From Sclerodactyla briareus (lineage: Eukaryota > Echinodermata > Holothuroidea > Dendrochirotida > Sclerodactylidae), in the NCBI GenBank assembly GCA_026419785.1, contig JAODTK010002765.1, forward strand, positions 409,501-473,500: a stretch of DNA of 64,000 bases. Reading direction: 5' to 3'. The notes beneath the pieces were generated by a model. The model was not told the origin of the DNA. It saw only the letters and a program-made list of their open reading frames with translations, and made no database searches. This document shows positions 15,901 through 59,302 of this stretch, piece after piece. Both the position numbers and the translations under genes were made by a program. Within the stretch, counting starts at the first letter, position 1, and each line of letters begins with the position of its first letter.

Positions 15901-15944
15901 GGCTCATGGAAACGAATGCATCCTCTGACTGGTCCCGGGGTGGC

Positions 15945-17190: not shown

Positions 17191-17194
17191 AAGT

Positions 17195-25455: not shown

Positions 25456-25456
25456 A

Positions 25457-25458
<2 letters not shown>

Positions 25459-25487
<29 letters not shown>
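25459..25487 (+). repeat. Poly(A) tract of about 26 bases
   Basis: A long A run following 'ttctgattttt'. It could be the tail of a retroposed element inserted on the plus strand, but I could not name the element upstream or find a target duplication. Confidence 0.6.
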
Positions 25488-26193
25488 CGCAACCCGGAGG
25501 TCACTCCTACACAGGGGATGGTGTTAATATTGGGGAAGGTATCAGCAAAAAAGTACCCTCATTCCACAGTTTCTCATCATGACTGGAATATTCATGTCAA
25601 TACAGGAATCCATTGTATTTTCCTCAAGTGACATCAAATTGGAAAGATGCACTGCTGAAAGAGCTCTTTGTCTATTGCTCTATAGGAAGTTCCTTCCGCT
25701 ATCTGCCATGACTCCTCCAGTGACCTCTTCCCTGCCTTCGCTCCTCTCTGCATGCTTTCCTCCTCTTTCAGGCCTAAGCCTTCCCTAGCCTCTAGACCCT
25801 TTCCTTGCCTTCCGCCATGTGAAAAAATGCTGCTGTGGCAATGTTCCTCCTCTCTATAAGTCAACGTTTGGCAGACGCACCACTGTTAAACTGCAGGATG
25901 CCCAGAATCACTGCAATTTCAGTTGGCCCTCGATCCACCCCCTGAGTTCGTGCTTCGGTGCTCGGAGCCAGACCAGGCTGTTGAGGCTCTCAATTTGGTT
26001 TTGAGAGTAGCCTGGCAGACAACTGCGCAGCAAGAGGGCTCCCTCACCTCTCAAACCAGGCGAAAGAAAGTCTGAGACTGCCTCCTCTAGATGTTGACGA
26101 CTTCATGGGAATGCTGGTTGAAATCCTACTTGGTGGCACACCAACTGTCCTCGCCATCAGGACAATCTGATGACGAGGCTGCCAGTTCAGAGA

Positions 26194-26454
26194 TCATGAC
26201 ACTGTTATGAGCACAAGACGAAGAAGGCTTTCCTCAATCTCGCTAAGCTTTCTTGGATATAGACACGGACTCTGTTGGTGTGGTGGTTTCTCTAGTAACT
26301 TGCATGAATGGCCTGCCATAGTACAACTAGATATCATCAATACATCCATCTTTGAGCCGGTACCCTCTACTGCTGATTCCTTTCCATCAGCTTCATTTTT
26401 GCCTCCTTCTTTATTGCTTGACAAGTCGAGGAATCTGTGCATGCAATTCTCCAT
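26194..26454 (-). CDS. Weak candidate exon, unidentified
   Basis: An 86-codon minus-strand open stretch has protein-like composition (ENCMHRFLDLSSNKEGG; EADGKESAVEGTGSKMDVLM; RKLSEIEESLLRLV). Splice sites were not convincing, and the opposite strand is equally open at 26,207-26,473. No family recognised; listed because one of the two strands may be coding. Confidence 0.2.
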   Translation of the reverse strand: MENCMHRFLDLSSNKEGGKNEADGKESAVEGTGSKMDVLMISSCTMAGHSCKLLEKPPHQQSPCLYPRKLSEIEESLLRLVLITVS

Positions 26455-26479
26455 GATGATACATGAACGCTAGTGGTTG

Positions 26480-29400
26480 TGGTGTCAGGTCAGAAGTTAT
26501 CTAAGGTCCGCAGTCTTAAAACCTTGAAATGCGATGAGAATAACCTGGCTATGAACTGACTGTGTTCCTGTTGGTGCTGATCCCATCATGTCTTCAAAGT
26601 CATAGGTTGAGATGACATGCAGTGGCCCATTCTATCGGACAATGAGTTCGCAGACTTGAACAATGAGTTCATGGGCGTGAACAACAAGTCCACAGAAACT
26701 TGGCACCCTCCAAATACGACGTGAACGATAAGTTCACAGACGTGAACAATGAGTTCACAGACGTGAACAATGAGTTCACAGACGTGAACAATGAGTTCAC
26801 AGAACTATACAAGGAACCTAAACAAAACGACCAACAGATAATAAACCCGACAGGCAGAACACCCTGCAATCACAGCCTACCAAGCTATAAACGTTCAACA
26901 GGGTCAACAGTTCAGGGTCCTTTTTGTTCCATCAATATAGGCACAGCCTGGGATAGACCAATCTAGCGTTTTGATGTTTCAGACCTAATGGAGCAGGATC
27001 TCGCAAGACCCGTCTCTCGATCGTCCTCGCTCATGCTCAACACACATCCCAGCAGCAAGACAGTTCTCGGCAAAGATTCATGGAGGTTCTGTTAGGGTGG
27101 CACCACTTCTGCCAATTATGCAAGAGGATATAATGTTGAGATCACAAATCTGAATTTTCAGGAACAAACGGTCGCAAGGGACACCAACCACCGGAATGCG
27201 AACCTCGTGAATTTAGGTGTCATTAAAACTTCTAATGCAAACCGGCAAAACTCAAAAACCACCTCCGGGAACTCAAGCCTCGGGAACATCAAACCCCAGA
27301 AACATTGGACCCCAGGAACATCCGGTAGACCCTGTGGCCTCAACCTGAATTGACCTTCCTGTCTAAAGCTCTGGTGACCCAAATGCCATAAAAATGTATC
27401 ATACTGTCAACCCTCCTCAGTGGCGTCAAATCTGATCGACCTATCTCTCTTAAAGCTCTGATGAGAACCTCCCGAGGTGGATGATTTCTTTCTCGATCCC
27501 ATTTCAATAGTGCTTGTTAGGCGCGGTGTCAAATCTGATCAACATATCTTGTCTTTCTTGCCAGGAAAATGTTGCCTTAACTGTCAAACAACCTTCCTTA
27601 GTGACGTCAAATCTGATCGACATATCTTCTCAAAGCTTCTGATGATACCCTCCAGAGTTGGATGAACCCCTTTTGTGATCCATCTCATAGTGCTGGTTAA
27701 ACTGGTGTCAAATCTGATCAACCTCAACCTATCTGTCTAATGCTCTTGTCTGTTGCTCTATGAAACCAATTTTTGGGGTGTCAGGTCATAGGTCTGAAAG
27801 ATCTGTAAACACGATAATTCCAAATGGTTGGTCTGATTGAAATTTGGTTTGTAACTTTCTTATTGGGGGTACGAACCATATTGTCTTATTGGTTCTGGTC
27901 GGAGGTAAATTTTGATCAGAAATGAAAAAAGTTGGAAAAGTCTATATTTTAGCCAATTTTTGGTTGTGAACTTGATAACTCTCGACCCCACCTGGATGCA
28001 CAAAGCCAATACTTGGTATGTGTGTTCCCCATATGAGTACATGAAACCCTATTGTTTGTAGTATCAGTCGAGGTCAAAGTCTGAAAACTTTGAAATGTGA
28101 TGAGAATTACCTGGCTGTAAACTGACTGGGTTCCTGTTTGTGCTGATTCCCATCATTCTTTGAAGGTCACAGTTTGAGATGACATGCAGTTGTGGCCCAT
28201 TCTATCAGACAATGGTTCAACAGACGTGAACATGAGTTACAACGTGAACAATGAGTTCACAGAACTTGGACTAGAAAAACATTGTTAACCGTGAGTTCCA
28301 CAGAACTATGCAGGACCTAAACAAACGACCAACACGTAATAAACCCAACATGCAGAACAAACCCTGCAATCACAGGCTACCAAGCTATAACCTTTAACTG
28401 AGTTCAGTCCATTTTGTTCCAGAATCATATCGGCCAGCTCGTGAGAGCCGATCCAGCGTTTGAAGTGTTCAACCTAATGGATTCAGGATCTCGCAAGACC
28501 TCAATCGGCCTCACCCCCACATCCCGCATCAAGCTTAGTTCTCGCAACATTCATGAGGTTCCGTTTAGCGGGCACCACTTCTGCCTTTATACACAGAGTA
28601 ATATAATGGTTGATATCACAAATCTAATATTCGGGAACATCGATCCAGGGACACCAAACCTCAGAGTATCAAACCGCGGAAACATCAAAACTTGGTTGTC
28701 CTTAAACTTCCATGCAAACGGAAAAATAAACCCGGGAAAATCGGCCTCAGGAACATCAAACCTAGAAACATTGGGACCCCCGCACATTGGGTAACCCGTG
28801 GCGTCAAATCTGATTGGAGTGTAGTGTAGATAGCATGTCTGCGCAGTCAAAGTTTGAGATGACATGCAGTGGCCTATTCTATCGCACAATGGGTTCACAG
28901 ACGTGAACAATGAGTTCATGGGCCGTACCACGAGTCCAAAGAAAACTTGGCAACCCAAAATACACGTGAACAATGAGTCACAGACTGAACAACGAGTCCA
29001 CAGAAACTTGGCAACTTCAAAAAACATTGTGAACAGTGCGTTTCACACGAACTATACAATGGGAACCTAACTACAACGACCAATATAATAACCCAACAGG
29101 CAGAACACCCTGCAATCACAGTCTACCAAGCTATCACGTTAACAGATTCAGGTCCATTTTGTCCGCATCAATTAGCACCAGCTCGTCGATAGGCTGATCC
29201 AGCGTGAGTTTTTAGGCCTAATGAGCATGATCTCGCAAGACCTCAATCGTGCTCAACACACATCCAGCAGGCAAGTTAGTTCTCAGCATAAAGATCATGG
29301 GAGGTTCCGTTTAGCATGGCCACCACTCTGCCATTACAGTCAACTTCCTCCAAGTGGCGTCAAATCTGATCGACCTACCTTCCTAAAGCTCTGATGAGAA

Positions 29401-30830
29401 CCTCTCGAGGTTTGATGATTTTTTTTCGATGCCCAATTTCAAAAGTGTTTGTAAGCAGCGGTGTCAAATCTGATCACAAAACATATCTTGTCTTTCTTGA
29501 CAGAAACATGTTGCCTTACTGTCAACCTTCCCTGAGGGGGTGACTCATCTGATTGCTTACTTTCTCCTAAAGACTACTACTGGCAACTTCAAAAAACTTG
29601 TGAAACAGTGAGTTCACAGAAACTATACAAGAACCTAAACAAAACGACCAACAGTAATAAACCCAACAGGCAAACACCTGCAACCACAGCCTACCAAGCT
29701 ATAAACGTAACAGAGTTAGGTCGCATTTTGTTCCATCAATATCGGCACAGCCGTCGATAGCTGATCCAGCCGTTTGAGTTTTTAGGCCTAATGAAGCAGG
29801 ATCTGCGCCCAAGACCCAATCGCTGCTCAACACAATCCAGCGCAATTAGTTCTCAGCAAAGATTCATGGAGGTTCAATTTAGCGTGGCACCACTTCTGCC
29901 ATACCGTCAAACCTCCTCAGTGCATCAAATCTGATTCGACCTATCTTTCTTAAAAGCTATGATGGAACCTCTCGAGGTGGATGATTTTTTTTTTCGATCC
30001 CATTTCAAAAGTGTTGTAAGCAGCTGTCAAATCTGATCAACATATCTTGTCTTTTGCCTTGAACAGAAAAATGTGCCATTACTGTCACCATTCCTCAGTG
30101 ACGTCAAATCTGATTGACTTACGTTCCTAAAGCACTGCACGAGAGCCTGCAGAGGTGAATGACCCTTCTTTTATCCCCTTTCAATAATTGCTTGTTAGCA
30201 GCGTGTCAATTGATCAACCTATCTGTCCTAACGCTCTGGTGCCCCAAATGGCCAGAAAAATGTAGTCATACCAACATTCTTCCTCAGTGCGTCAAATCTG
30301 ATGACCTATCTTTTTTTCCTGAAGTCTCTGATGAGACCCTCCCGGTGGATTATTTTTTTTTCGATCCCATTTCAAAAGTGCTTGTTAGCAGCGATGTCAA
30401 TCGATCAACATATCTTGTCTTTCTTGCCAGGAAAAATGTTGCCTTACTGTCACCTTTCCTCGTGAACGTCAAATCGATTGACTTGTCTTTCCTAAAGCCT
30501 GCAGGAGCTGCAAGTTGGGATTACCCTTCTTTTGATCCATTCATCAGTGCTGTTAGCAGCGGGGTCAAAATCTGATCACCTATCTCGTCTAGAGCTCTGG
30601 TGACCCAAATGCCAAAAAAAAAAAAAAAAATGTAGTCCTACCGTCAACCTTCCTCAGTGGCGTCAAATCTGATGACCTATCTTCTTAAGCCTCTGATGAG
30701 GAACCTCCCTGGTGATGATTTTTTTTTTTTTTCGATCCTTTCATTAGTTCTGGTTAGCAATGTCAAATCTGATTGACCTATCTTTTTTCAGAAGCTTCTG
30801 TGCAGCCTCCAGGGCTCACTCCCAAAATAC
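26480..30830 (+). repeat. Mosaic array: minisatellite module alternating with the dimeric satellite
   Basis: Three recurring blocks interleave. Block M ('tgagatgacatgcagtggcc', then copies of 'gtgaacaatgagttcacag', then 'ctataca-gaacctaaacaaacgacc') lies at about 26,610, 28,180, 28,855 and 29,580. Block F ('ggaacatcaaac…cc-agaaacattgg') lies at about 27,170-27,330 and 28,630-28,800. Block S, the satellite of 17-22 kb, lies at 27,340-27,735, 29,335-29,570 and 29,915-30,800. Every M copy is followed by the 'cagcaagctagttctc…ggaggttccgtttagcgtgg' type tail, and then by F or S. Copies are strongly diverged with many one-base deletions. Confidence 0.8.
26719..26802 (+). repeat. 21-bp minisatellite, four perfect or near-perfect copies
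   Basis: Units start at 26,719, 26,740, 26,761 and 26,782; the last three are identical (acgtgaacaatgagttcac + ag). Being a multiple of three it translates as a TDVNNEF repeat on the plus strand. Degenerate copies continue upstream to about 26,640 and recur at 28,205-28,290 and 28,880-29,060. Confidence 0.9.
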
Positions 30831-31008
30831 ACTGTTGAGCGAGTTGCCAGATGGTACCTTGTCCTTATCACCATATTTAGAAATTCCATTCCTCTATATA
30901 GGGTTGTATTTTCCTTCCCATTAATCCCCTCTGCCACCAACTGCTCTTGGGGGACAGCCAACCTCTGCTAATTATTTGTCACTGTCGACATAGATGACAG
31001 CCTCTACA

Positions 31009-31330
31009 GGCGGATTAGCTCACTCGGTATAGCTTCCGACTTAGATCATAGATTGCGAGTTTGAATTCCAGTGAAGGCCCGAGGGCGTTTCCGCAGTGCT
31101 GTTAGACAAGGCATGTCACCTTGAATATCTCACGCTACCCAACATTCAAAGTGGGTAACCTGCGGGTAACGGAAGTGGGCGCCGCTGCGTTGGCTGCCAG
31201 GGGTGTAGTAGGTCGTGAGCGAATGTGCACCCTGGGTGGTGCGGCAGAGTCTCCATCAGGTTACCAATGCTCAGGGGAGATTTAGCGGCTAGTCGTGTGA
31301 AGAGGGGCTGCCTATAAACCTGAATTTGAC
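31009..31330 (+). mobile_element. tRNA-derived SINE
   Basis: The 5' part looks like a degenerate tRNA with internal RNA polymerase III promoter boxes: A box tagctcactcgg (31,016-31,027) and B box gtttgaattcc (31,059-31,069), about the usual distance apart. It is followed by a body 'gacaaggcatgtcacc…acgctaccca…gtgggtaacctgcgg' resembling tRNA-related SINE bodies of marine invertebrates. The tRNA part lacks a clean cloverleaf and continues into the body, so it is a SINE rather than a tRNA gene. The 3' limit is uncertain. Confidence 0.6.
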
Positions 31331-32250
31331 ACATTTTTTTTTTTTTTCCTGCTGGTGGGAGCTATATTCGCTTCTCATAGTGGTTAGTCTGACTGCCTAA
31401 TCTTTCGTAGAGCAGAGCCTCCTCTCCCTAATACTTCCCGTTGTCAGCTCTAGCTAGTCCAACGTTGTATTATGATCATCGATCTTCCTTTCATACATTT
31501 CATTATATATATATAAATGTGCTTATTTAAGGACGCACCTTGTCCGGGGCTGTAGGGGTGCCTCATACAATTAACAAGTGCATTATGGAATGACCTTTAC
31601 CTGTACACACGTTGTCCCGCTTCACAATCTATAAATGTCTTCTTTCGCACTGAATATGTCCGTTTCATGTGCACCCAAATTTCTTGAATGAAAGAATGCG
31701 GGATTATACTCGGCTGGCGGTTTACCCTCACCAACATTTTCTCTATTTTAATATGTTGTATGTTAGTTGATGCTGTGCTGATGTCTTACAATTACAACTT
31801 TCATATATGGAATGTTTGATATCTGCTAGCTTGGTGGCTATGTCCCTCAAACCAAGGACCCAGAATATTTGGTCCTCGTCTGATGTGATCCTCCTCCCAC
31901 TCCATCAAATTGTCACCATATCTAGAATCTTCCTTTGGCGAGACTTGGGCAACAGCTAACCATTGCAGAATTATGTTTGCCTCTGTCGACTCGGACGCTA
32001 GCCTGATACATGTTTATTATCAACCAATGGTACATTCTGAGTTATTTAGGATTTCAAGGTCTGATTAGAGTACAGTATCATGATACTTGATAGTGAAATT
32101 ATTTACCAGTGTGGTACTTGGGCTGTCCGAATTTACCAAGAAATAGATCAAGCATTCAACTCCCAAGTCATCTTTCTGTCTGCTGTGTGATTCCCAATCT
32201 CACATTCTCAGTCCTGTCGGAATGGAGTTCAGGAAGAGACTCAGCAATTA
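31331..32250. other. No recognised gene
   Basis: A T run at about 31,334-31,347 and AT-rich single-copy-looking sequence; a short (AT)n lies at about 31,503-31,516. Confidence 0.4.
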
Positions 32251-32254
32251 CTTC

Positions 32255-32277
32255 TGTGTGTGTGTGTGTGTGTGTGT
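32255..32277 (+). repeat. (TG)n microsatellite
   Basis: About 11 uninterrupted TG dinucleotides. Confidence 0.9.
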
Positions 32278-32409
32278 TTGTTACACTTCTACTTGTTAGC
32301 CAACTAATATCATTATATCCCTGCGACACTGGAAGCATCCGGGGATATTATTGGTTGTGGGTGCGTAGCCGCCGTCCCAGGCTCCGCCGCTGCCAGAAAC
32401 TTAGGTGGT

Positions 32410-32900
32410 TAGCGCATTAACTCTTGAACGCTTTGTCCGATTGATCTGAAACTTGGTACACATGTTCGCCCTAGTGGAATCTGGATGAGTTCAAAAGGGG
32501 CATCATCTGCAATGCTGGGAAGCCCGCTGATTTGCCATATTTACTGCGAAATTTTAAGAGTAGTCGGATTTGAACGAAACTTGGTGGGTAGGACTACTGA
32601 AGTGATTCTAGGAAATGTGGAGGTCATTCAAGGTCATCGAAGGTCAAATTTTTCGAAATTCATGCGATTTACCAAACTTTGTCAGATTTGAACGAAACTT
32701 GGTGGGTAGGGACTATAGTTGTTCCCGAAAAATGTGGAGGTCATTCAAAGTCATAGCGAGTCCAAATTTGCGAAAGCATGCAATTGACAAAAATTGGTGG
32801 AGGGGGGGGGGGGATTACATTTGTTCTCTCACGAAGTTTAGAAGATAGAAGTCATTTCAGAGCCATCATGGGTCAAATTTGCATAATTCATGTGCCTATA
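32410..32900 (+). repeat. Short tandem array, unit about 130 bp
   Basis: 'tttgaacgaaacttggtgggtagg' type words recur at about 32,569 and 32,687, with related forms at about 32,440, 32,790 and 32,925, each followed by 'aaatgtggaggtcattcaa-gtcat' or a relative. A run of 12 G residues (32,802-32,813) interrupts the third unit. Confidence 0.65.
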
Positions 32901-35251
32901 TTATTAAACTTCCATGGATTACAAACAAAAACTTGGTAGGTGAGTGTATCTGGGTTTATGACCAGAATGGGGTTCTTTATGGGGTGTTAGATACTCATTC
33001 CCAATGATGCTCAAAAGCATGGGATAGACACGTGGGCCGGCTTACCCACAACACATGTCTAGTTTTACATATATGGAAGGACAATGGTCATGTTTGTAAC
33101 AGATTTTCTTCAATAGCACAAGAAAAAGAGGAATGACAAAATGCCCACACCCCAAATAGCATTGTTCTCGCATTGTTGCCTTGTGATTCATTTCAATTTA
33201 CTTGTGAGGAATCTGACAGCATCGATGACATCACGAGGGTAACACCTTAGAGGCTGCCCATAGACTACCACAGTAAATGCTGCTCTGTTGCATCATGATT
33301 ACAGAAATATGAAATAGGTATTCAATTAGAAATAATGAGATCTTTGTTTAACTGTCATGAACAATTTTGTGAGCTTTTATTCGGATCCCATCTATAGTTG
33401 TTTGTTACAGGGTTTTCAAAAGCTCATGTTTTACATTGAGTTTGTATTACGGAAGGTCCTGTGGTTCCCCCCTTCCCCCATGATGTCACCAGGCAAATGT
33501 TGCAATAGCTAATTGCCCTATTGTCATTGATTCAGCTGGAAATTGGTATACGAAGGTTGGCTGCCACAGTGTAATAAATAGAAAGCACTGACCATTGGTC
33601 TTTTACAATGGAAAGAATGTATACTGCAACTGGAATTAGTGGATGGCCAATCTGTAAAGCATTAATTTGGCAGGTATATAGATATTGCATATTACTATTT
33701 GTTATGACATATGCTTGTTTACCTTATGGTGAGGTTTACATCTTTCTCGACTATATCGATAAGATCTGCATATGTATTTATCATGTATACAATAATTGTG
33801 GGCCGATATGTATATGAGTTCTGATCATTCTTCATCATCTAATATTTAACCACAGAACAATATGATTGCATAGGTTTTATTCCGTACCCTTAATGTTTAT
33901 CATGCCTGAGTCAGATCAGTGATGTTGACAGAGCTAATTCATGCACATTGGATATTACTATACCCCCATGATGAAGTGCACATCTTTCTTGACTCAAAAT
34001 ATTCCTAATAGTGTATCATTAGTAATGAATGACTGAGATTTCAATTGTGGCAGCTATATATTTCTAATACGGCTTCACCATTTGAATAAACATAAAAAAC
34101 AACGAATATGACAACTGAAATTGGACAATTAGGTTTTATTCTTGGTATATTCTTGGTACAGAGTGAAACCACAAATTCCCAGCAGTAGTTATTTCGATTA
34201 CAATAAAGAACTACCAGAATTCCCCAAATTCCTATTCTGGTCCACAGGCCCGGGACAGTCTATCTATCGGACCCGGCATTACAGACTGATCTTTCTGACA
34301 TGGGACATGAAAATAGTTAGGAACAAACACCCACCTGTCCCAAACTATCAACTAAGTGTTACACTACCATGTAGATACACTCAAAGTTAACGTGCATAGT
34401 ATAAGCCTTACAGTAATTCCAATGCTGTTCAGTAGAGCTAATCTACCTTGTGTTGTCTGTGTAAGCACTTTGGTATGTTATTATTCGAGCTGCTGTATAC
34501 AGTCTACCTCATGGTTCCCTTGATGTTTTACATATATTTCTAATATGCCTGTTTTTCATTCTGATATTTACTCATCACAGACAATACATATGAGCAACAG
34601 AAGAATGATACTGTTTGTAACAAATTTTATTCCTTGCCGGTACCATCAGTAACAATGTGGTGTTTTCAAAACGCTGTACCCTGGAATACCATAGCGTACA
34701 CCAAATTTGGGCATATCAGATGAAAACTATAGCTTCCGCATTCAGGCAAGGTCATGGGATGACGAATGTGTGGGAAGTGCATTGAAGTAGTCCAGTCGGG
34801 ACTATCAGTGTTTTTTCGAACTGGTATGTTATGTATGTATGCAAGATAAAACATGTTCTTTTGATACACAAGTGGTGACTTTGAGAATATCAGATGACCT
34901 CCACTTCCACTTTCAAAATGGCGACCAATTCGATACTCAAAATCGAGAATCATTCCAAAATGTTTCCATCCAGAAAGGTAATTCATGTGAACAAACTTGT
35001 AGATGGGAAGATTAGGACTGAATTCTTGCAATGGGAAAAAGACACAGTGGAGTGTCAATTGGATGCTGAAGGGTCCCCTGTATGACAAGTTTTGCGTGTC
35101 AAGAGAACGCATCCCACCAGTTGTGAACTTGTATGGACAGTTATTACAAGATCGAAGAACGCAGCAATAAGTAAGTCGGATAACAGTGGACCAGTACAGA
35201 TCCCTATGGAATGCCTAACCCAGCAGCAGCAGGTTCTGATAACTGGCTGAA
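32901..35251. other. Intergenic; diverged dispersed repeats
   Basis: Phrases such as 'gattgcataggttttattccgta' recur in altered form at about 33,865, 34,125 and 34,620, suggesting old repeats. A 148-codon minus-strand open frame at 34,666-35,112 lacks any motif or splice support, so I do not call it a gene. Confidence 0.4.
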
Positions 35252-35254
35252 TAA

Positions 35255-35644
35255 GGCTAGGATTCCATAGATGCGTATGCGTATTTGGAAATCGCAAATT
35301 CACGTGAACTGAGCGGGGGTAGTGTTTGAATATGTTCTATTAAGTTTGCAAAGATAGCTGATTGGTTCTTGGAAGCCAAAAATTCATAAATGAAGGCAAA
35401 CCAACGCTGAAAAGGCAAAATAAGCTCATTCACCGATGCGTATGCGTATCACCGCGAATGAATGGAATTCTATGGAATATCTTCCTTGAAAAGCCATGCA
35501 ACGACATATTCATATGCTTCTGCCTTGTTTATGGTCTTTTCGCATACATTTTATGTGTTTCCCTTCTGAAACAAACGTTCATTTTCGTAAATATGTGATT
35601 TTCACATCCAGCCGATACGCATACGCATCTATGGAATCCCAGCC
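35255..35644. mobile_element. MITE, PIF/Harbinger type, complete, 390 bp
   Basis: The left end reads GGCTAGGATTCCATAGATGC and the right end, reversed, reads GGCTGGGATTCCATAGATGC, an inverted repeat of about 30 bases continuing GTATGCGTAT. It is flanked on both sides by TAA (35,252-35,254 and 35,645-35,647), the three-base target duplication typical of PIF/Harbinger elements. No transposase frame fits inside. A third copy of gatgcgtatgcgtat lies inside at about 35,435. Confidence 0.85.
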
Positions 35645-36686
35645 TAAGCTCATGGCCCACTATACCACCCCAGCAAATGTACAGGAGGAACCACCCAAGG
35701 GCAGTGTCCATAGTAACTGTCATGAATGCCCTTTCCGTGCTATGCATATCCTCATAACTCTCTCTGACAGAGAAGTAATCCTCCGTATTGGTGTACAAGC
35801 TCCAAATGGTGAGCTGCAGTGAGGTATTCTTTGAGCTGCCAAGTGGGTTTATAGGTTCATTCTAGCTGACAAGTGGGTTTATATGTTCAGAAAGCAAGGA
35901 GCAAAATGAGATTGACTACAGGCAGTGGATGGCAGAGGATACCCCGGAAACTCAAACAATGCTGCTAAGTCTCCTGGCAAGGCAGGGCGTTACTTGTTGC
36001 ACATCCCTAGCTGAGTCCTGTTATAGCCGAGCTCTATCTCCGTGAACATCCACACTAAACTAGTGCATCATGATGGAAACATCCCCAGCGGAATGAGAAC
36101 ACATCCTGGCAACATAAAACATAATGTGCAATTATTTATTGTATATTTTTTAAAAATCCTAAAGGTTAATTGTCCCCCCCCCCTCCACTTTCCACCTGCA
36201 TAATAAGCATATGCATGAGGTTACGAACCTCTACATTGCTGAGCTACGGACCAACTCCTGCATCGAATGTGGAACCATCACCCAGATTCATACGCCATCA
36301 TTCCCACAAATATCAGACAGTTATTAACAGTCGATGGTGCTGTACGGACTCTATTCGTAAGGAATCCCACTAGCACAACCCTCAATCGTACCCGCGTCAC
36401 ACAATCAATAGGACCCAGTGCAGTCAGTCCATGTGGTAGGAAATTCCATCGGCCAGCAAAAACCCATCTTTTCGGCCAGCCCCGTCTCCAACAACCTGGC
36501 AGCATTGGGGGGCGCCATGGTGCAAAACCAGCCCAACACCACTTTCATAGTACTTGGTCCTTTGTCTGCTGCAAAGGTTCTAAAGCTATATCTGCAGTGT
36601 CATAGCCTGAACAGTTATTAACTTGACTGGGGAGACGAATGCAGAGCTAACTATCGGGTGGGGAGGAAACAACAGATCAAGTCCCT
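35645..36686. other. Region downstream of the minus-strand gene
   Basis: The likely 3' untranslated region of the gene ending at 36,687 lies here, read leftwards. An AATAAA on the minus strand at 36,140-36,135 is a possible polyadenylation signal about 550 bases after the stop. Confidence 0.3.
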
Positions 36687-36800
36687 TCAGGGGTTTTTAG
36701 CTGCAGGTGTCATGCTTAGGGAAGTCTCTGACAGACCCGCCAGCTCTGCTTCTTCACCGCTGTCCTGCAGCTCTTCATCATCGGGAAGCCCTGGTAGATC
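36687..36800 (-). CDS. Terminal exon of the seven-exon gene
   Basis: Acceptor with a strong pyrimidine stretch (ctctccatcgctcacttccag) then 37 codons, DLPGLPDDEELQDSGEEAEL, ending AAKNP and a TGA stop. It enters in phase 0, matching the preceding exon. The tail is acidic and probably disordered. An alternative acceptor at 36,913 would lengthen it, but that one does not fit the phase of the preceding exon. Confidence 0.6.
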   Translation of the reverse strand, partial: DLPGLPDDEELQDSGEEAELAGLSETSLSMTPAAKNP

Positions 36801-37668
36801 CTGGAAGTGAGCGATGGAGAGTTCAGGTAGGCGCCAGCATTGCTGCCAACTTTGAACCTTGAGTTTTAACGAGAAAGGTCTCAAAGGCTCAGTAACAGTT
36901 CCTGAACTCATATCTGATAACCTATGACCAAACACAAGAGCAAATGGGATGTAATAGTTCATTGTGTGATTCAAATTTAAGAAAAAAAAATTTTTGGAAG
37001 TGATCACACCATATTAACAGAAAACAATTTAGGCTTCCCATTCATATATAAAAATGGAAAAAAGAAAGAAACATATGACTCTCATCCTCCTTGGATTTAA
37101 GCATTCTTGACTCATCAGGTTGACCTCTAGTGACCCCAGTTGACCTTTTCTGACACAAAAACAGTATGGCTTTATGCATGTACTCCACGTTTAACATACA
37201 TACCAAGCATGAGCTTATCCACCCAGGAAAAGTTGACGTAACTATCATTTACACGACCCAAAAAACAATAGGTTTCATGTGCTTTAATAGGGAAGGAAGC
37301 TGTACACAAAATATGTTCACAAGGATTCCCGATGACCTCTGATCTGAGTGAAAATCAATGGAGTCCATGTACTGGCATACAAACCACGTATGAGCTTCAC
37401 ACACCCAAGCATGGTAGACTCATCCTGTTTTAATACAAGCTCAAATTGCTCGAACTAAAAAGGAATCTACAAAGGAAAATAGGGTGGACTGTACTCCCAT
37501 AGAAAAGCAGCACACAAAATTTTGCACTCAACACGTTTACAAGTAATTCAGATTTCAACCTCTGTTGACCTCTGATCTGACCTAAAATAGGTTCCATGTA
37601 CCCATCATGGGGTACATACATGCCAGGTATGATGCCTCATCCACCCAGGAATGGTGTATAACAATTAC

Positions 37669-37830
37669 CTGAGGGACTGCATGCCCTGCTCCGAGACGGA
37701 GTTCACTGCTCGGTGAAGTTTGAAAAAAGGACGCATCAGTCATGAAGCTACCGGCAGCTGAGTTGATCTCGCCATCGATCAGATCGATGATGATCGATTC
37801 TACAGATGAATCCAGGAGAGTCTCCCTCAC
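37669..37830 (-). CDS. Exon of the seven-exon gene, 54 codons, intact
   Basis: Acceptor tttttactcaaccag, donor cag/gtaatt, exactly 54 codons, phase 0 at both ends, no frame break. It begins VRETLLDSSVESIIIDLIDG, an amphipathic helix with a V.S.I.DLI pattern shared by the neighbouring exons, then a Ser-rich stretch ending GAGHAVPQ. Confidence 0.65.
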
Positions 37831-38500
37831 CTGGTTGAGTAAAAACGAGGAAAATGGAACTGGTACCGACAGGGCTAATTGTCTCGAAGAAAGCAGAAAT
37901 GTAATATAAATTAATTTGTGATACAAAAAGACATTTCTGTGACTCTGTAGCATGAAACCATGCATGGAGACGACTGGAAGTCTCATCAGAGGTTGACTCC
38001 TGCCTAGAATTCAATGACGCATGAACAATCAATCTTGTCTGCAGTAATATATTGATATAAAGTCGATGCAAAATGAGCACTTTCCAAAACCTCCTAAAAA
38101 TAACAGTAAGTGACGTATGATCGCAGCATATGAAAGAGTCATCACATTTTTATGCAAGGGCATAGGACCACAGAGGCTGGAGGATTAATAAAGTATCAGT
38201 GCGCTTCCCGCTCTTTCGAGTCGGAATACCCCTTTCACATTTCTCGGTTAAATGATGACATCATTGAAATATGTATGTACAGGCGTGCTGATTTGCATCA
38301 ATTTGCAACACACAAAGACACATACAAAGTCAACCGCCCAGATCCTTCACAAGGAATAAGAGACCCTTACCTATAAAAAATAAAAAAAACACTGAGCTGG
38401 GTTATCAGATCAATTCTGTACTCGGACACTCATGCATGTACAACTGTGCATATACGAATATATACCACCAATAAGGTGAAGAATTCTAAGAGGTATTTAC

Positions 38501-38705
38501 CACTCCAAACAGCAAGTCCTCCGCAACACTCTCATAAATTCCATATAGACATCCACTACGTTACTCTCGGCTAGGTAGTCATTGACCAACTCGCCAATGG
38601 CATCGACTGCCACTGATCTCAGCTCGCTGTTGATCATCACATTGAGTAGAATCATCTCTCACAGGGTACAGTATTGTGGGGTCAACGGCAACATCCTTCC
38701 AATAA
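38501..38705 (-). CDS. Exon of the seven-exon gene, with two compensating frame breaks
   Basis: Acceptor ttacccattcacatacag, donor gtg/gtaaat. The 205 bases enter in phase 2 and leave in phase 0. Three readings succeed one another: YWKDVAVDPTILYPVRDD, then ELRSVAVDAIGELVNDYLAE, then IYESVAEDLLFGV. The first and last share a frame and the middle one does not, so one base has been gained and one lost, or the assembly is wrong twice. The middle block is another amphipathic helix of the V.AI.ELV type. Confidence 0.6.
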
Positions 38706-39540
38706 CTGTATGTGAATGGGTAAAATAAAGGAGAAAGTGTGAAACATAAAACACGTGGCTGCTAGGTTATTTGTAACGAGTCATCAACCATTTGAACCAC
38801 CAAAAACATCTTAACATGCCAGCCATGAACTCTGGATATATAGAAGAATTAGTATAACAGATGAGAAGATCACTGAAGAGATGTTGGGTGGTTGTGCTCC
38901 CGGATAGAAGAAAATCAGGAATACTTGAACATCCCATCCATTAACAATATGGCCAGGGTTCCCTGATGGGCCTGAATTGACTTCTTGAACCCGAAGAGAA
39001 TTTAATCAATTAAAAAAGAGCTGTATGACTATTAGGCTTCAAACTTGGAAAGGTGAAAAAAGGACATGCCAAAATCTCACAACCTCAATTTTGAGATTGG
39101 AGCAAGTGCCTGTGTGAGTGTTCCACCTGTGGAATGTCACAGCCTCACAGGGGAGATGATGAACAGTTCAACCACTGACTATTACCCAATAAATGCTACC
39201 ACTCTGCAACATGTTAACAAGTTTTTTTTTCAGATGCAGTTTTTAAAGGGCTTTTCAAAGTTTTATGTCTATGACTTTGAAGTTGTAACACAGGTTCCTC
39301 TAAGCCTCCTCCAAGCTTTGTCCTTGTGGCATCGGAGGGTATATGTTACCATGTCTGAACTACCCATATGACGAGGGTGCCGTGACAAGAGTGCTCCGGG
39401 TTGGGCAGACCGGTTCTACTCCGAATAAAGGGTGGTTACCTCAGAATTTCGAAAAACTTTTCGAGTGTGTGGAACTATAAGGAATCGCATGAATGCCTAA
39501 TGTGAGAAACAGATAGTACCAAACCAAAGATCGAGTTGAT

Positions 39541-40080
39541 TTTTTAGCTCAAAACCAGCTATGCTGGTTGAGCTATTGTGATGCCCATGTCATTCTATCT
39601 ATCCTCCTATCTATCCTCCGATCTATTATTCTATCTATCCAGTCTGTAAACTTTTGCTTTTTGGGCCACAAAATGTTCATGTTTTGATGAATCTTGACCA
39701 GACTTGGTCACAATGTTCATTGAATGATGGGTCATCTTTGACCACTAAAGGTCAAGGTCAAATGGCATTAAAGGGGCACAATGGGCTACTTCTCCTACAA
39801 ATTTTGGTGCACAGTGCTGTGGTTTAATCATTTGATGGTCTAACAGCCGTTCCTTCAGGGTGTTCAGGAATTTTTGATCCAAGTTCCCATTGGGCCCTAG
39901 GGCCCATTTTATGAAATTCACACGATGGTACTTGAAAGGCATCTCTTACCACAAGCTTCAATTTATTTTTTTCAAAGTTGCATGTAATGGACCTCAGGTA
40001 GAGGGGGTGTCCAGGGTTCTGGGGGCTTGGGCCCATTAGGACCTTAGGACCCATGGCCCAGTGTGGGCTGAAACACATTT
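39541..40080 (+). repeat. Dispersed repeat with a 5' hairpin, copy 1
   Basis: Begins tttttagctcaaaaccagc, whose reverse complement (gctggttgagct) follows after a few bases, forming a hairpin. Then come CTAT-type repeats (39,596-39,645) and the words 'aaaatgttcat', 'gaccagacttggtcacaatg' and 'aaggtcaaggtcaaatggca', also present in copy 2. Confidence 0.75.
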
Positions 40081-41782
40081 TTAGAGAGAATTGCTGTGAT
40101 TCATATAGTTCTCATACACATTGGCTGTTAGTTCTATTTTTTAAAATGTGGCTGGGAACACTACCAAACTCATCTCACTGGAAATTCCCCCTACTGGATC
40201 TGGGTCCAGTGGTCACTGTGCTCTCCAACCCAGCTCTCACTTACTGTACTGTAATAAGTGTATTAACAGGCTACAGCTAGCTATCTATAGGCACCTGTAC
40301 ACTATTGTTTCCCACTACACTGATTAAGTACAGTAGGGTTTAGACATCGATCTGTCCAAATTAGAATATTATAAATAATATTGAATGCATCACTGAATAT
40401 GAGCCATCAGGGAGGAAGAAATGAGTCTGAAGGTTTACTTACTTTTCAAGATGGAAAATTCTTATTAGGAAGTCATGTTGTTTTCTTTTTCCTACTCTTG
40501 TTAGGTGGGACAAAATAGTAAGTATATTAGGCCTACTATCATACTGTAACCCATAAGTCCCTCAGTATCATACTTCATATTAAACAAACAAAATCATGTG
40601 ACAGTTGCCGACTGTTACCGTTGTGCCAGTATTACTCTTGTTACAGTTCCCGATATTTGTCCTGATGTTCAAAGATGCGCACTGTTGCGCAGTAGCATTA
40701 GAGCTTCACTATGGCCTAGTACTTTTAGTGGTATTCTTGCATAGTATAGGCCTCAATCAGAATCTGAACAGTCAACTTCTTTTCTAAACATATTCAGTAT
40801 GTATAAATGATTGTACATTCCTGAAATTTGTCATGACCTCTGACACAAAAATACATGCGTAGTTGAGAACAGTGACACAGATGCAGTTCAGGTCATTTTG
40901 GGACATTTCATGCAAATAGGCCTACGCCAAATGCTTCTTCTCCTAGAGTTGAAATCAGAGGATGATCTTGAACTGTGGTTATAATATCTATAATAACTAT
41001 TATTATATTAAACTGCCTCGATGTTATAGCTTACAAATTCCAGGAGGTTCTTAGTCTAATGTATAGACGACTGTGTCTTTAACGCCGGGCTTACGCGTAT
41101 TACACCCGCCAAGTTTTTTTTATATATGCATCAGTGGTGTAGCCTCTCCCATTCAGTCGATGTGAACTGTTAATCTGCTGCATATTCTCAAGCGGCCAAT
41201 CACTTCATTTCCCAGCGTTGTCAATGGTAACTGTATTAACGCCCGCAGAACATACACGCAGGCCGCGTGGAGATCGGACTTAGTTAAAAATTTTGCCTTA
41301 CCGTCTCGCTAGTGGCAGTGGCAGGTACGGTGGAATGGAGACGACTTACTGGTTTGAAAGTTGCTATGATAGAGCTGAATTAACGCGATTAGTCATCACC
41401 TCGTCGTGTCTTCTCAATACTACCATGGGAAAGCCGTTTTACAGCCTACAAGAGACTCCGATGTCGGGGTCTAGTCTGTGAGAGGTGTAGTAGTTGTCGC
41501 GCGCTATCACTCGACGTTTGCTGTATCGCAAGATGATTCATCGAGTCTTGAACAAGACTAGGAGGTTCTGGGCATTTTGGTTGCTGGATATAATTCATAT
41601 GAGTAAGATAGCGAGCAGAATGTGAAAGGTCCCAGGCTTCCCTAGATACTACCTATGGGAGGTTTATTATACCTACAAATTTGGCATTCCTTCCCTGTTT
41701 ATCATGGTAGGCTGTTTCTAAGATCGAAAACAGCATCATTTGAGCTAGAAAAATCAGATTTCAATCAAAATTCCTGCAATTT

Positions 41783-42500
41783 TTAGCTCAAACCACCAGC
41801 TGGTTGAGCTATTGGAATTTGCTGTCTATCAATCAATCAATCAATCTATCTATCTATCTATCTACTCTATCTATTCAATGTGTCAACAATTGCGTTTTGG
41901 CTCCCAAACAGTCATTCTGCAATGATGTTGACCAAACTTGAACACAATGTTCATTGACCCATGGGACAATGTTTTGACCTTGTGAAGGTCAAAGTCAAAT
42001 GCCATTAAAGTTGCCACTTGGGCCCCCGTCGGCCCATTTTGAAATTTCACACAATGGTACTTGAAATGCATCTCCTCCAACAAGATTCAGTTGATGTTCT
42101 TCAAAGTTACATGTAATGGTCCTTGGGTAGAAGGCCATCAGGGGTGTTTTGGATCGGGGTCCAGTTTGGGCCCTAGAGCCCAATATATGAAATACTGCAA
42201 ATCTTGTATCTCCAACAAATTCTGTCGCAAATTGCTGATGTTCAGTCATAAGGACTACTAGCTCATACCCTCAGGGTCCCCGGGATTTAGGATCCAAGGC
42301 CCATTGTCACTGTGGCCCATCATATTGATTGAATGCTAAGACATCTTTGGGACATGCATGATCAAAAGTCGTACAGGGGCACAATAGGCCATTGTTTTGA
42401 AACTGCCTCCTTTGCCTAAGATCTTGAACATTTATCACAACATTGTACATTCGTCTTGGTACATTTGTGCAGTTTGAGCTACAGCACCATTGGTGCTCTA
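41783..42500 (+). repeat. Dispersed repeat with a 5' hairpin, copy 2
   Basis: Same order as copy 1: the hairpin agctcaaaccaccagctgg then ttgagct, a (TCTA)n/(AATC)n microsatellite (41,826-41,870), 'gaccaaacttgaacacaatg' and 'gaaggtcaaagtcaaatgcc'. Orientation is the same as copy 1, about 2.24 kb away. Confidence 0.75.
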
Positions 42501-42612
42501 GTTTAATGTATGTACCCATGTAGCAACAACATCAGTGATACTGCAGAAATGCTCACCACATTTTATATTGGACCTGGATCCTTATAGCCTATCCCAGTTA
42601 CTTCTCTCTCAC

Positions 42613-42730
42613 CTGATTACTAGCGGCACTCTCACTTTCTTTGCAGCACTTATCAGCTCTCGTTCAGACATTCTTGTAGAACATCCTTAGCAGCTGAGAT
42701 AACAGGCCGAGATGTCCGGTCTAGGATATC
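42613..42730 (-). CDS. Exon of the seven-exon gene, one base short
   Basis: Acceptor atctaacccacag, donor cag/gtgaga; 118 bases. The first part reads DILDRTSRPVISAAKDVLQE and runs into a stop; the part nearer the donor is open in another frame (LISAAKKVRVPLVI). One missing base would make both parts a single frame of 119 bases and give exactly the phase needed by the next exon at 38,705. Confidence 0.55.
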
Positions 42731-42819
42731 CTGTGGGTTAGATGGTAGATCAGATTATATTACAAAGTGACCGCCACAAGTGTCATTTGCGTGATCAGTT
42801 CCAGGTGAATCAGATGAAC

Positions 42820-42855
42820 TTCAGTTATGGCAGATGAACTTCAGTTATGGCATAT
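42820..42855 (+). repeat. 18-bp direct duplication
   Basis: 'agatgaacttcagttatggc' occurs twice in immediate succession. Confidence 0.85.
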
Positions 42856-43199
42856 TCATTGAAATTAGTCACAAGAAATTACCTTGAGCGACCTTAACTC
42901 TACTGATAATTTTCAGTGAAACTGAGGGTAGACCATAGTCTCCAGTTCCCTCATCCCAGGAGGTTGGTATTGAGTTAGTAAGGTATTGATGGTGGTAGGT
43001 GGCTAGACGCAGAGTATGGTAGAACTGAACTGCAACAGATATAACCGCAGATGCAAGTGCACCCAGCCCCGCCTTTGGGGCCAGCCAGGGTGAAGGAAGC
43101 CTAGAGGTTTAGTGATTTCCTTGGATGAGCGGACTTCTATTAGGACTGACCATTGTTGACTAAACATGTTTGCAATATATGCACATACTTTGACCTTAG

Positions 43200-43760
43200 A
43201 AGACCTTACCCAATAGTCGAAACAACAGGGTCCATTTATCCACTATGGGGAGGCAATATAGTAAGGCTTGCTCCATCCTGGTGGGGTCAAGTTACACAAG
43301 ACGAAAGTTGCCCAAATGTCAATTTCCTATTTTCACCACAAAACTTTTGTACTTTCCATAAGAAAGCTGCTCAGATTTCAGCTTGATCCAACCATGCATT
43401 CTGGATTTATCATGTTCACAAGGTTACCAGACTTTAACCTGACATTGAGCTTTGAAGTATGAGCTCGATTCATCAGGTATCATTCTCACCAGCAAAATTG
43501 ACCAAGACACCAATTGTTCCCATATATATCCTTCATTTAGACTTAACCAGTAGGGTTCTTGTACTACTCATATTAAAGAAGCTGCACCCAAAATTTCGCT
43601 TGAAAGAGCTCCTGGACTTATCGACGAATTTTGAATAGGTTTCAGACTTCAGCCCGCTATGACGCTTGGACTACCTTTGACCAGACTCAAAACAATAGGG
43701 TACAGGTACTCATGTCATACCCACTCCTTTGAGGGATCACACAAGCTGGGCAAAATAATA
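43200..43760. repeat. Degenerate dispersed repeats
   Basis: Several copies of a unit with 'ttgaccttag…acccaatag…aacaacagggt' and 'atcctggtggggtcaagtta' occur here and at 44,290-44,640, in the introns of the minus-strand gene. A C run (43,873-43,887) and a short (CA)n follow. Confidence 0.5.
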
Positions 43761-44157
43761 TGGAAAAAAATGAGCAAAGGAGGCAGTCTCAAAAAAATTC
43801 ACTCACACATTCAAAATTGGGGTCTGAACAAAGCAGCAATGAGCAGCGTGCTCTGTGAGGAGGCCATGATGACCCCCCCCCCCCCCCACACACACACAGT
43901 GGCATGCCCTTGCCCTTGTGACATAGTGGAATCATGCCCCAACTAATACAACAATTCGAAATCCTGGAGTTCACTGATAGTCCTCTCAGATGCAGACGTA
44001 AAATGGCATTCCCCGGAGCAGGTTGCAATTGGTTCCCCCCTGCCTCAATATTATCTGGGATATTAACAAGGGTTCCCAGATGAGCCGTAATTGGCTTCCT
44101 GAACCCGCAGAAATCAAATCAAATTAAATCAGGTCGAGTTGATTGATCATACTGTAC

Positions 44158-44291
44158 CTGTAATTCCTTGGACTCTACCAGTACCTCCGCAGCCACATCT
44201 ACCAGCAGTCCCTCAACACAGGAGTGGATGAACCTCTCGATGAAAGACGCAGCATGACTGGAATCAGCCAGGAATCTCAGGCTCAGGGTAT
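44158..44291 (-). CDS. Exon of the seven-exon gene, 44 codons, intact
   Basis: Acceptor ctgttttttctccag, donor cag/gtacag; 134 bases, entering with two bases and leaving in phase 0, which fits the next exon. It reads TLSLRFLADSSHAASFIERF and then VEGLLVDVAAEVLVESKEL, helical with the same spacing of valine, leucine and glutamate seen in the neighbouring exons. Confidence 0.65.
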
Positions 44292-45179
44292 CTGGAGAAA
44301 AAACAGATTAGATTTTGTAATCAGACAGCCAAAAGGCTTAGTGATTCCTTGATTCTTTCTGACAATCTATGGCCAGACACAAGGACAAATGGGAGATTGT
44401 ACAAGCTTATCATGGGCAACATAACATCTGACAAATTTCCTATTTATCCCAACCAACCAACCTATACTCTTGATTGGGAAGCTACACACTCAATTTCAAG
44501 GTTTTCAGACTTTGACCGCGCTCTGGTACGATAAGGTCATGTACTCACATGGGAATCACAATACCAGCATGAGACCTCTTTCCATCCAGGTGGGGTCGAG
44601 TTATTGTGTTTACAAGCTGGGCGTCACATACGCACACACATACACACCACCACGCACACACATACTGTCATGACTGCATAGATTTCTTCTGGCACTGTCA
44701 AGGGATCGAAAATAGCAGCATTATACTGCATTATTATGGAGAAATGATTGATGATCAGTGCTTAACACCAAGCAATTCAATACATATGTAAACTTTTTCC
44801 ATTCTAAGACAACCTGCTGTCCGAAATGAGCTGAGGAAGTTGTTCCGTAGCTTGCAGGCAATACATATATCACATATATTCAGACTAGCCAACTGTTGAC
44901 AGATAAATCGCCAACATGTAATGCCCCAACGTTAGTGAAATCATTGCATTTCCTATCAGAACAGTATCTACGAATGGTGCGCTTGAGCCCCAGGTGAGTG
45001 GAATGCAGAAATTAGGCCAGAAGATTTGTTCCACAACATGTTTTGTTGAGAGCAAGAAAGAGCCCACAACACTGTAATGCCTTTATTGTTGCTATTATGC
45101 CATTTTCAGAAGTGCACAATGTTGAGTTAACAATGACAACAAGTATCTGAAAATTGAACTAAGGTGACCTTGAAATATA

Positions 45180-45737
45180 TATTTAGTTTAGTTTAGTGAA
45201 TAAGGGTCAGGAAGGACAAAATCCTCATAAACGACCCTGGAGCCACAACATCCCAGGAAAGAAAATGAACCAACCATAAATAATTCGCCTGTGATTCCTC
45301 TGAAAAATAAATCAAGACTGTTCTTGAACGCATTCACACTCTTCGAGAGAACACATTTTCAGGAAGACAATTCCACTCATTGATCACTCTCTGCGAGAAG
45401 AAATATCTACGAATGTCCAATCTGCAGCGCTTGCCACGAAGCTTGAGACAGTTACTCTATTTGCAGTAACATTGGAAAATTCAGAGAAGTAGTGGAAGGA
45501 AAGGCCAACGGAATCATGGACCATTTTGAAAACCTTGATCAAGTCAACCCCGCATTCGCCTCGCTCAATGGTAGTTAGCCGAACGCCTTAATTTCTTTCT
45601 CGTAGGACAATTTTTCAGACATTCATCATCTAGTTGCCCCTATGCTGAAAACGTTTTCAATAACCTGCTTGTCTTTTGCAAAGTTGGGATTCCACACTTG
45701 TACAGAATATTCCAGGTGCGGTCACCCCAATTCACGG
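45180..45737 (-). mobile_element. 5'-truncated non-LTR retrotransposon (CR1/L2 type), 3' end of reverse transcriptase ORF
   Basis: The minus strand reads PHLEYSVQVWNPNFAKDK, then a broken stretch, then RGECGVDLIKVFKMV, and finally LDIRRYFFSQRVINEWNCLP and, after a frame change, NAFKNSLDLFF. These are the thumb and C-terminal blocks conserved in CR1/L2-like elements (recalled). It ends in a short 'actaaactaaact' repeat near 45,190, like the microsatellite tails of this clade. It lies in the intron between the exons at 45,761 and 44,291, in the same orientation as the gene. Confidence 0.85.
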
Positions 45738-45760
45738 TGAGTGAACCAAGTTTCAGATAC

Positions 45761-46506
45761 CTGATATGGTGCATCATTCCATAAGCCTGTCTTCTCTCTC
45801 CAGTAGCTATATCTCTGATGAGGCCAGGGTCTTTCCAGTCATGCAGCGATGGCAGTGAGTTGTGCCGTTTCTTGAGCTTGGTTTCCCAACGCACCGCGTC
45901 TCCGAAATAGGATCTGCAGGAATTTTTCTCGAGTGTTTTTGTAACTGCTGCCTCGGCCATTTGGTGGATGGTCATGAGAATGAGGTCGTAGGTCATGAAC
46001 TGGCCGACCCTTAGTAGAGAACTTTGGGAAGTGAACTGCTCGTAAAATGTGATCCGCAGGCACATCCGGGGGTCAAGATTCTCAACAAAGTGTTCTCTTC
46101 TCAAATTCCTCCGACTGTCAGTAGATGACGACAGATACCTCTCCTGATTATCAGAACCATGATTGAGAATGGGAGGCAAATCATGCCTATGTAAGTGACC
46201 ATCCAACGAATATGGATAGTCCCTCTGCCGTCATATCAAGTCCACCCCATACCCTGATTCTGGTTTTGGGTTTCTTGCGATACTTTGGTAGTCATGGAAT
46301 GGGTCGGTCCAGTTCCCCCTTTCTTTCTGTGGATTCCGTACTCCTGCATTTGGCTCAGAAGGAAGACCCCAGGAGACTCCTGGGTTTGGTCTCCATCGAT
46401 CATTGAAGCATCGTTTTGATGATAGGGTGGAAGAGGTGGTACCCTCGGATGACTGACTCTATTCATTGGTGACAGAGAGCTCCTTAGTGCTGAGTCTTCT
46501 CCTGAT
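45761..46506 (-). CDS. Largest exon of the seven-exon gene, about 248 codons with a frame break
   Basis: Acceptor cttcattatcgccag at 46,506; donor cag/gtatct at 45,761. The first half reads SGEDSALRSSLSPMNRVSHP and on through a proline- and glutamine-rich, probably disordered part (PPLPPYHQND; FLLSQMQEYGIHRKKGG). Near 46,235 the frame shifts; the second half reads RREHFVENLDPRMCLRITFY, RVGQFMTYDLILMTIHQMAE, YFGDAVRWETKLKKRHNSLP and SLHDWKDPGLIRDIATGERR. That half looks like a folded helical domain. I do not recognise it. The way it joins the exon at 44,291 is not settled: phases disagree by one, so another exon or a further indel is likely. Confidence 0.6.
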
Positions 46507-46879
46507 CTGGCGATAATGAAGAATCCAGATGTATGTATTGAAGCATTCAAACTCTGCCCTGCCATTACAAATATGGAGAGAGGGAGAGTGGGGGGGGGGG
46601 GGGGCATTAGACCTGACGATCCTTATGACACACCAATAGGTCGGTGGGAACAACATCAAAAATAAGTTGTATATCTCCCAAATGGAGAATAGTTCCTTAA
46701 GCTTCACACGTTTTAGACAAGTCAAGCTATGATAAAATGTCGTTTTTTTTACTGTATACTTTTTCTGCCAGGAATTTGGCACATACCAATTTGTGTTACA
46801 ACACGTCAATGTAGAGCCAGACAGACAGAAGCAGGTACGTGGAGTCCTGATGGAGAGTCCCGATTAAGTGCTTCAATAC

Positions 46880-46955
46880 TTGTGTGAATATCTTGCAAGC
46901 AGCTTGTTCCAATCAAAAAACTTCTCAGCCATTATTTTCAGCTCAGTCCTACATT
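46880..46955 (-). CDS. Exon of the seven-exon gene, 24 codons, intact
   Basis: Acceptor gattttaggcaag, donor caa/gtattg. The 76 bases are 2 + 24 codons + 2 and fit both neighbours in phase. It reads CRTELKIMAEKFFDWNKLLA, ending RYSHK across the junction. The acceptor's pyrimidine tract is poor, so the boundary could shift. Confidence 0.5.
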
Positions 46956-47426
46956 CTTGCCTAAAATCTTATACAGTCGATGGTTGTGCGGCTGTGCCTA
47001 AGGTACAAGACTGCTGTGAACTGGAAGAGGACAGAACCCTCAAAATGTTGGTTTGAAGAAATGGGCACTATTAGTTCTATTTTTTCAAAGGAGTCCAGCT
47101 CACATAGCCATGACACTGCAGGATATTCATCATCAATAGCTATCGTTCTGCAAAACCAATTTGAGATGTGGAATTTGGAAAAAAGCTAGAAGCGTTGTGG
47201 CCTAAGAGTGGACATTAATAAACCTGCCATTTCAGACTCAACCCAACAAGACAATTATATAATTGAACAGTGTTGTAAATACCCAGGTGGAGAAGGACTG
47301 TTAAATCAAAAACCTGCAGTTACCACTCAGTTGATAGGCACAACATATTAATACCATCTTACTGACAGAAATTCCAGGTAATTAATAAATATTATATGAA
47401 CTTATCAATGAATTGCAACTCTATAC

Positions 47427-47540
47427 CTGAGTGACTCCATAATTCTTTCTGAAGGTGGTGGTCGATGCTACGTGCCATGGTGACTGTGACCTCCATTGAG
47501 TGACAATTGTCAACGTCGGTCATGCATCCATAGATTGAAT
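47427..47540 (-). CDS. First recognised exon of the seven-exon gene, 37 codons, intact
   Basis: Acceptor tttcggttgtaactacag, donor cag/gtatag. The 114 bases are 2 + 37 codons + 1 and the outgoing phase fits the exon at 46,955. It reads SIYGCMTDVDNCHSMEVTVT and then MARSIDHHLQKELWSHS. The real start of the gene is upstream; the open frame at 47,640-47,978 is a candidate. Confidence 0.55.
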
Positions 47541-59113: not shown

Positions 59114-59302
59114 TACACCCAACCACCCTTCCTACACCCAACCACCCTTCCTACACCCAACCACCCTTCCTACACCCAACCACCCTTTCTACACCCAACC
59201 ACCCTTCCTACACCCAACCACCCTTCCTACACCCAACCACCCTTCCTACACCCAACCACCCTTTCTACACCCAACCACCCTTCCTACACCCAACCACCCT
59301 TT
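59114..59302 (+). repeat. 19-bp minisatellite, about 10 copies
   Basis: The unit acacccaaccacccttcct repeats almost without change; a few units have cttt instead of cttc. Because 19 is not a multiple of three the three frames rotate, giving a 57-base protein period (Thr-, Pro- and His-rich) that I do not regard as coding. Confidence 0.95.

Follow-up and report, generated by a model that had tools for sequence, protein, structure and literature searches.

The minus-strand exons that we analyzed in a 64,000-nucleotide window of the Sclerodactyla briareus genome are real features, and they probably belong to a real, ordinary and unplaced animal protein-coding gene whose frame breaks are probable assembly errors. 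The window covers 409,501–473,500 of its contig, which runs 9.3 kb past the window end, and is part of a 319-Mb assembly. An animal source is indicated by exons elsewhere in this assembly that look like receptor-tyrosine-kinase, GRK and MAST genes. At a probability of about 0.68, the locus represents the 3′ portion of a minus-strand animal gene of ordinary kind with several exons, whose frame is probably intact and whose breaks are probably assembly indels. This assessment is based on codon bias and splice signals, on amphipathicity in some of the pieces, on the lack of a detectable second copy and on the occurrence of like breaks in conserved genes. In the explanation that we propose, the C-terminal half of the protein would be a run of helical segments, most of them acidic and in part amphipathic, encoded by E3–E6 (Table 1) and most likely serving to dock or scaffold partner proteins, the gene would be expressed with an intact reading frame in the animal, and the single-base breaks in the contig, at least two in number, would be residual indel errors of the assembly.

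Table 1. Exons of the gene model in transcription order, and the repeat fragment following E2 (window positions)
Feature	Position	Strand	Remarks
E1, possible first exon of the earlier model	47,427–47,540	−	weak; codon-score fraction 0.055, with a single frame of the three open
E2	45,761–46,186	−	start uncertain, several weak acceptors at 46,186–46,009; donor CAG/gtatct
E3, helical peptide	44,158–44,291	−	starts in phase 1, ends in phase 0; scan rank 2
Decayed non-LTR retrotransposon fragment, dispersed	45,182–45,732	−	lies in the intron following E2; assigned by eye to the reverse-transcriptase end
E4	42,613–42,730	−	one frame break, in the second half (frame profile)
E5	38,501–38,705	−	two breaks with the better acceptor (38,705), one break with the weak acceptor (38,626)
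E6	37,669–37,830	−	probable further frame break ahead of the last third
E7, terminal in the model	36,687–36,800	−	two open frames compete

Splice sites were scored with a standard animal splice matrix, and their strength is given as percent rank among all AGs or GTs of the window. The E3 acceptor and the E4 donor each fall within the top 0.1%, the E4 acceptor ranks at 3.2%, the acceptor and donor of E6 at 1.1% each and the E7 acceptor at 1.2%, with the E3 donor at only 8.1%. The recognizable acceptors and donors that the earlier note had ascribed to the exons are therefore upheld for E3, E4, E6 and the last exon, whereas the exon at 47,540–47,427 (E1) is marginal and the sites of E5 are weak (donor 6.4%; acceptor 10.7% at 38,705 or 33% at 38,626). 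Introns between exons with splice signals are about 0.7–3.9 kb long, and exons and introns of this kind speak against a processed (retro-) pseudogene. Agreement of phases, claimed for most joins, is found between E3 and E4 (0/0) and, only with breaks inside E4 and E5, between E4 and E5 and between E5 and E6, but not between E2 and E3. There the phases are mismatched (2 vs 1), which means a missed exon, a misplaced donor or one more break. The missing base postulated in the 42.6-kb exon is borne out by the break in E4, and the two compensating breaks postulated at 38.5 kb apply with the first of the E5 acceptors listed in Table 1 but reduce to one with the other.

Codon scores were trained on 33 of the 34 conserved kinesin and kinase matches of the genome (1,865 codons, including a few from intron sequence at the edges of matches), leaving out L048, a multiply broken copy, and are expressed as the share of equal-length open segments, taken from the window outside the gene and satellites, that score as high. 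Read as guides and not as formal p-values, as frames and piece ends were picked after viewing the sequence, these fractions are 0.0011 for E3, 0.0037 for the middle of E5, 0.0030 for the first 36 of the 54 codons of E6 (0.022 for the whole exon), 0.07 and 0.14 for the pieces of E4 and 0.09 for the end of E5. When synonymous codons alone are scored, E3 (0.009) and the first 36 codons of E6 (0.047) are the only pieces of E3–E7 below 0.05. In the last 17–18 codons of E6 another frame reaches 0.017, compared to 0.47 for the frame of the earlier model, and in E7 the corresponding values are 0.0046 and 0.037. The C-terminus is therefore ambiguous, the C-terminal frame proposed earlier is doubtful, as is the acidic C-terminus that goes with it, and another break probably lies in E6 (37.7 kb), since its last third and E7 prefer the other frame. 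For E2, the claimed frame beats the other five of the six frames by 17 bits (46,230–45,761). Position 46,230 marks just the beginning of its stop-free stretch, and its coding signal begins near 46,120; given this onset and several weak acceptors inside the open frame, the frame shift formerly invoked at 46.2 kb is unnecessary.

A free exon scan of both strands over 73 kb, which avoids the bias of frames and piece ends picked after viewing the sequence, returned four of its five top candidates inside the gene interval and on one strand: E3, E2 (as 46,009–45,761, rank 3), E7 in the other frame and E6 occupy ranks 2 to 5, and rank 1 is a purine-rich stretch. Forty dinucleotide shuffles gave a mean of 0.225 candidates at that score, with a maximum of two, and a single shuffle peaked at 20.8. 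As checks, a LENG8-like exon elsewhere in the genome scored 14.5, about level with the candidates of the gene, and a GC-rich, non-coding-looking stretch scored 31.4, so that a high scan score alone is no proof; it is the clustering of the candidates on one strand that convinces.

Of the open frames behind the exon peptides, only that of E2 is repetitive, and only in its tail. The retrotransposon fragment takes up the end of the 45,640–46,230 open frame, starting at 45,732 and running down, and the E2 donor (45.76 kb) lies about 29 bases upstream of it. At the protein level at least 149 other places in the genome match this tail (150 of 256 candidates scored), and among the matches listed, from the same 150 of 256 candidates, the self match alone starts upstream of residue 147 in this open frame (~45,792). 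All 19 fetched loci align to the fragment, 17 of them almost end to end at about 76–89% identity, one only partly and one as two pieces. Repeats are present in the introns of the gene. The E3–E7 peptides match only themselves in the genome (five of five matches), and a transposable element was rejected on these grounds. A genome search for a second copy of the gene found none, a result that is weak because the assembly gives the impression of being incomplete or difficult to search.

The breaks were set against those in conserved genes of the same assembly. The control set holds 39 conserved exons, of which 34 are kinesin or kinase (5,850 nt), two CCT and three elongation-factor-like, with matched stretches of about 6.6 kb; all gene names (GRK, CCT7, CCT1, mitochondrial EF-G, MAST, NEK, receptor-tyrosine-kinase and LENG8) are what we take the matches to be by eye. 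Single-base frame breaks interrupt clear homology in four of the 39, some of them beside the matched stretch rather than within it: a GRK-like (L066) and a mitochondrial EF-G-like exon (L071) carry one each, a CCT7-like exon (L068) carries two compensating breaks, as does E5 in the earlier model, and a CCT1-like exon (L069) combines a single-base break with a G-rich insertion. Within the CCT and elongation-factor sets alone, three of five exons are broken. Nine of the 34 kinesin and kinase exons list stops: L048 is the multiply broken kinase copy, in-frame stops interrupt L042 and L044, the reading of L058 is ambiguous, and for L015, L041, L045, L056 and L067 the stop, by reading, is at or past the exon end. 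These controls are biased, in that intact exons are easier to find and pseudogenes may be among the broken ones. CCT and EF-G should be indispensable genes, so breaks of this kind in them implicate the assembly. Runs of G or C at least nine bases long are also frequent in the window (19, versus 14 of A or T). Matches to some conserved families are few in the genome (kinesin five, CCT two, Rpb2 none, the Rpb2 search being uninformative on breaks), which suggests that the assembly is incomplete, error-rich or hard to search. A 2025 paper (PMC12007338) reports that, in small genomes, long-read errors can cause frameshifts and premature stops that pseudogenize genes. The gene resembles the GRK-, CCT7-, CCT1- and mitochondrial EF-G-like exons in being well kept with one or two single-base breaks per exon, but those belong to known families, whereas the gene matches no family searched.

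The earlier note had left the choice between assembly indels and a very young pseudogene. Our controls favor the former, and a young unprocessed pseudogene, its splice sites and codon bias retained although a handful of short indels have recently destroyed its frame, is the main rival, one that we consider unlikely. It would account for the two to five breaks per ~1.3 kb of proposed coding sequence (versus about five in the 39 controls over 6.6 kb, a high density if the upper count is right), for the failed join between E2 and E3 and for a retrotransposon so close past the E2 donor, and it has company in the genome, where besides the multiply broken kinase copy one MAST-like and one NEK-like exon have in-frame stops. 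Its case is weakened in that no intact parent was found, with the reservation on searching this assembly given above, and in that the codon signal picks up again past the breaks, clearest within E5, the stops close to the E4 and E5 breaks sitting in the abandoned frame. Because conserved, probably essential genes of the same assembly are broken alike, we favor assembly indels. That open stretches arising by chance, or a little-characterized repeat, were taken for exons appears very improbable: AG...GT intervals of 100–160 bases are common, the signals of E1 and E5 are weak and repeats occur in the introns, but the rank of the exons in the scan against the 40 shuffles and the self-only matches of E3–E7 argue against such an origin.

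With the locus read as a gene, the encoded peptide shows a helical pattern in part. By a best-18-residue measure of helical periodicity, four of seven pieces have p ≤ 0.05 (E3 0.013, E4a 0.017, the middle of E5 0.040 and E6b, which is in the alternative frame, 0.013), and three lie above it (the end of E5 with E6 0.053, E2c 0.25 and E4b 0.59). By a whole-piece amphipathic measure only two of the seven (E4a and E6b) are significant, so that the amphipathic pattern described earlier is a partial one. The E3–E6 pieces are mostly acidic, with the exception of E4b and E6b. On the Eisenberg scale E3–E6 lie outside the top 40 amphipathic scores and an E2 piece ranks 37th. Internal repeats between exons are unconvincing, the best of ten comparisons being E3 with E5 (p 0.010) and E3 with E6 (p 0.017). 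The most likely role of the peptide would be to provide helices on which partner proteins dock or are scaffolded.

No family was found in Pfam with the exon peptides, the nearest matches (TetR_C_35, FDX-ACB, GSH_synth_ATP and ScsC_N; E 0.027–0.26) being far under the cut-offs and dismissed, and a sequence search of PDB returned nothing even with E values as high as 10 admitted; the description of the gene as of unknown family holds for these two databases only. Read-through frames were searched against Pfam at E cut-offs of 0.05 to 0.5, on the minus strand over 36,001–64,000, 18,001–36,200 and the 9.3 kb to the contig end, and on the plus strand over 33,001–62,700 and the 9.3-kb contig-end piece. 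Two families emerged: a Death domain (E 9.6e-5), located by exclusion in minus 18,001–27,200, and a KIN17 zinc finger (E 0.025), under its cut-off. Among viral contigs there were nine pattern matches and no relative. We tentatively entertain the more specific possibility of a functional gene, intact in frame in the animal, for a helical docking protein that is lineage-specific and whose family neither Pfam nor PDB contains.

One known system that might be considered is the Sus1/ENY2- and centrin-binding region of a GANP/Sac3-like mRNA-export scaffold, the docking helices of which presumably resemble the peptide in being successive and in combining hydrophobic with acidic residues. We regard such an assignment as remote, as only this general pattern of successive helices speaks for it. 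The exon peptides have no Pfam CID_GANP match and no PDB match at E up to 10, read-through frames of the minus strand, from the gene as far as the contig end, show no SAC3 domain (one that is broken or divergent could escape), and the sole SAC3 match in the genome lies on another contig and is LENG8-like by eye. CID_GANP and MCM3AP_GANP have no match anywhere in the genome, the search controls being likewise silent, and the MCM3AP_GANP C-terminal domain gave none in the genome and none in the control genomes either. The gene therefore differs from the GANP/Sac3 CID region in lacking a sequence match and an upstream SAC3 domain and, in the present model, in ending soon after the helices. The Sac3/GANP docking-helix region is the subject of PMC2726291.

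A caution for work with this assembly is that a disrupted frame says little in favor of a pseudogene, given that conserved genes, probably essential ones, show the same kind of damage. Should the gene prove real and intact, it would add one more uncharacterized helical protein to those of animals.

A Pfam search of read-through frames scored a Death domain at E 9.6e-5, which was placed by exclusion in minus-strand 18,001-27,200. The large tandem-repeat array listed below reads 'ALRKIGRSDL' on the minus strand, so the Death-domain match may be derived from this repeat. Further repeats are present in the window, comprising a tandem duplication at 15,944-17,193 (660 bases at 97% identity), a 19-base minisatellite at 59,114-59,301 (about 10 copies, matches 97%) and, within the intron between E4 and E5 (two minus-strand exons of the proposed gene), a repeated pair at 39,541-40,005 and 41,780-42,134 with an identity of 74-81%. 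The non-LTR retrotransposon fragment is approximately 76-89% identical to the genome copies that were fetched.

Repeat features and example homopolymer runs, in window coordinates
Feature	Position	Remarks
Large tandem-repeat array	17,271-21,942, and in part 27,353-30,784	Units of ~97 and 191-198 bases
Long G and C runs (examples)	43,873; 46,590; 50,410; 60,511	
Non-LTR retrotransposon fragment	45,182-45,732	Many genome copies

Homopolymer runs of nine or more bases, counted across the whole window, number 19 for G/C versus 14 for A/T at a GC content of about 43%, and this excess of long G/C runs is either a trait of the assembly or real biology. Among the conserved exons from elsewhere in the same assembly that served as frame-break controls (gene names assigned by eye), the CCT1-like exon L069 (C219:466,191-466,319 and flank) is broken into by a G-rich low-complexity stretch, an interruption that is likely an assembly fault. 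The kinase exon L048 (C352:189,826-190,056) carries multiple breaks and is possibly a true pseudogene.
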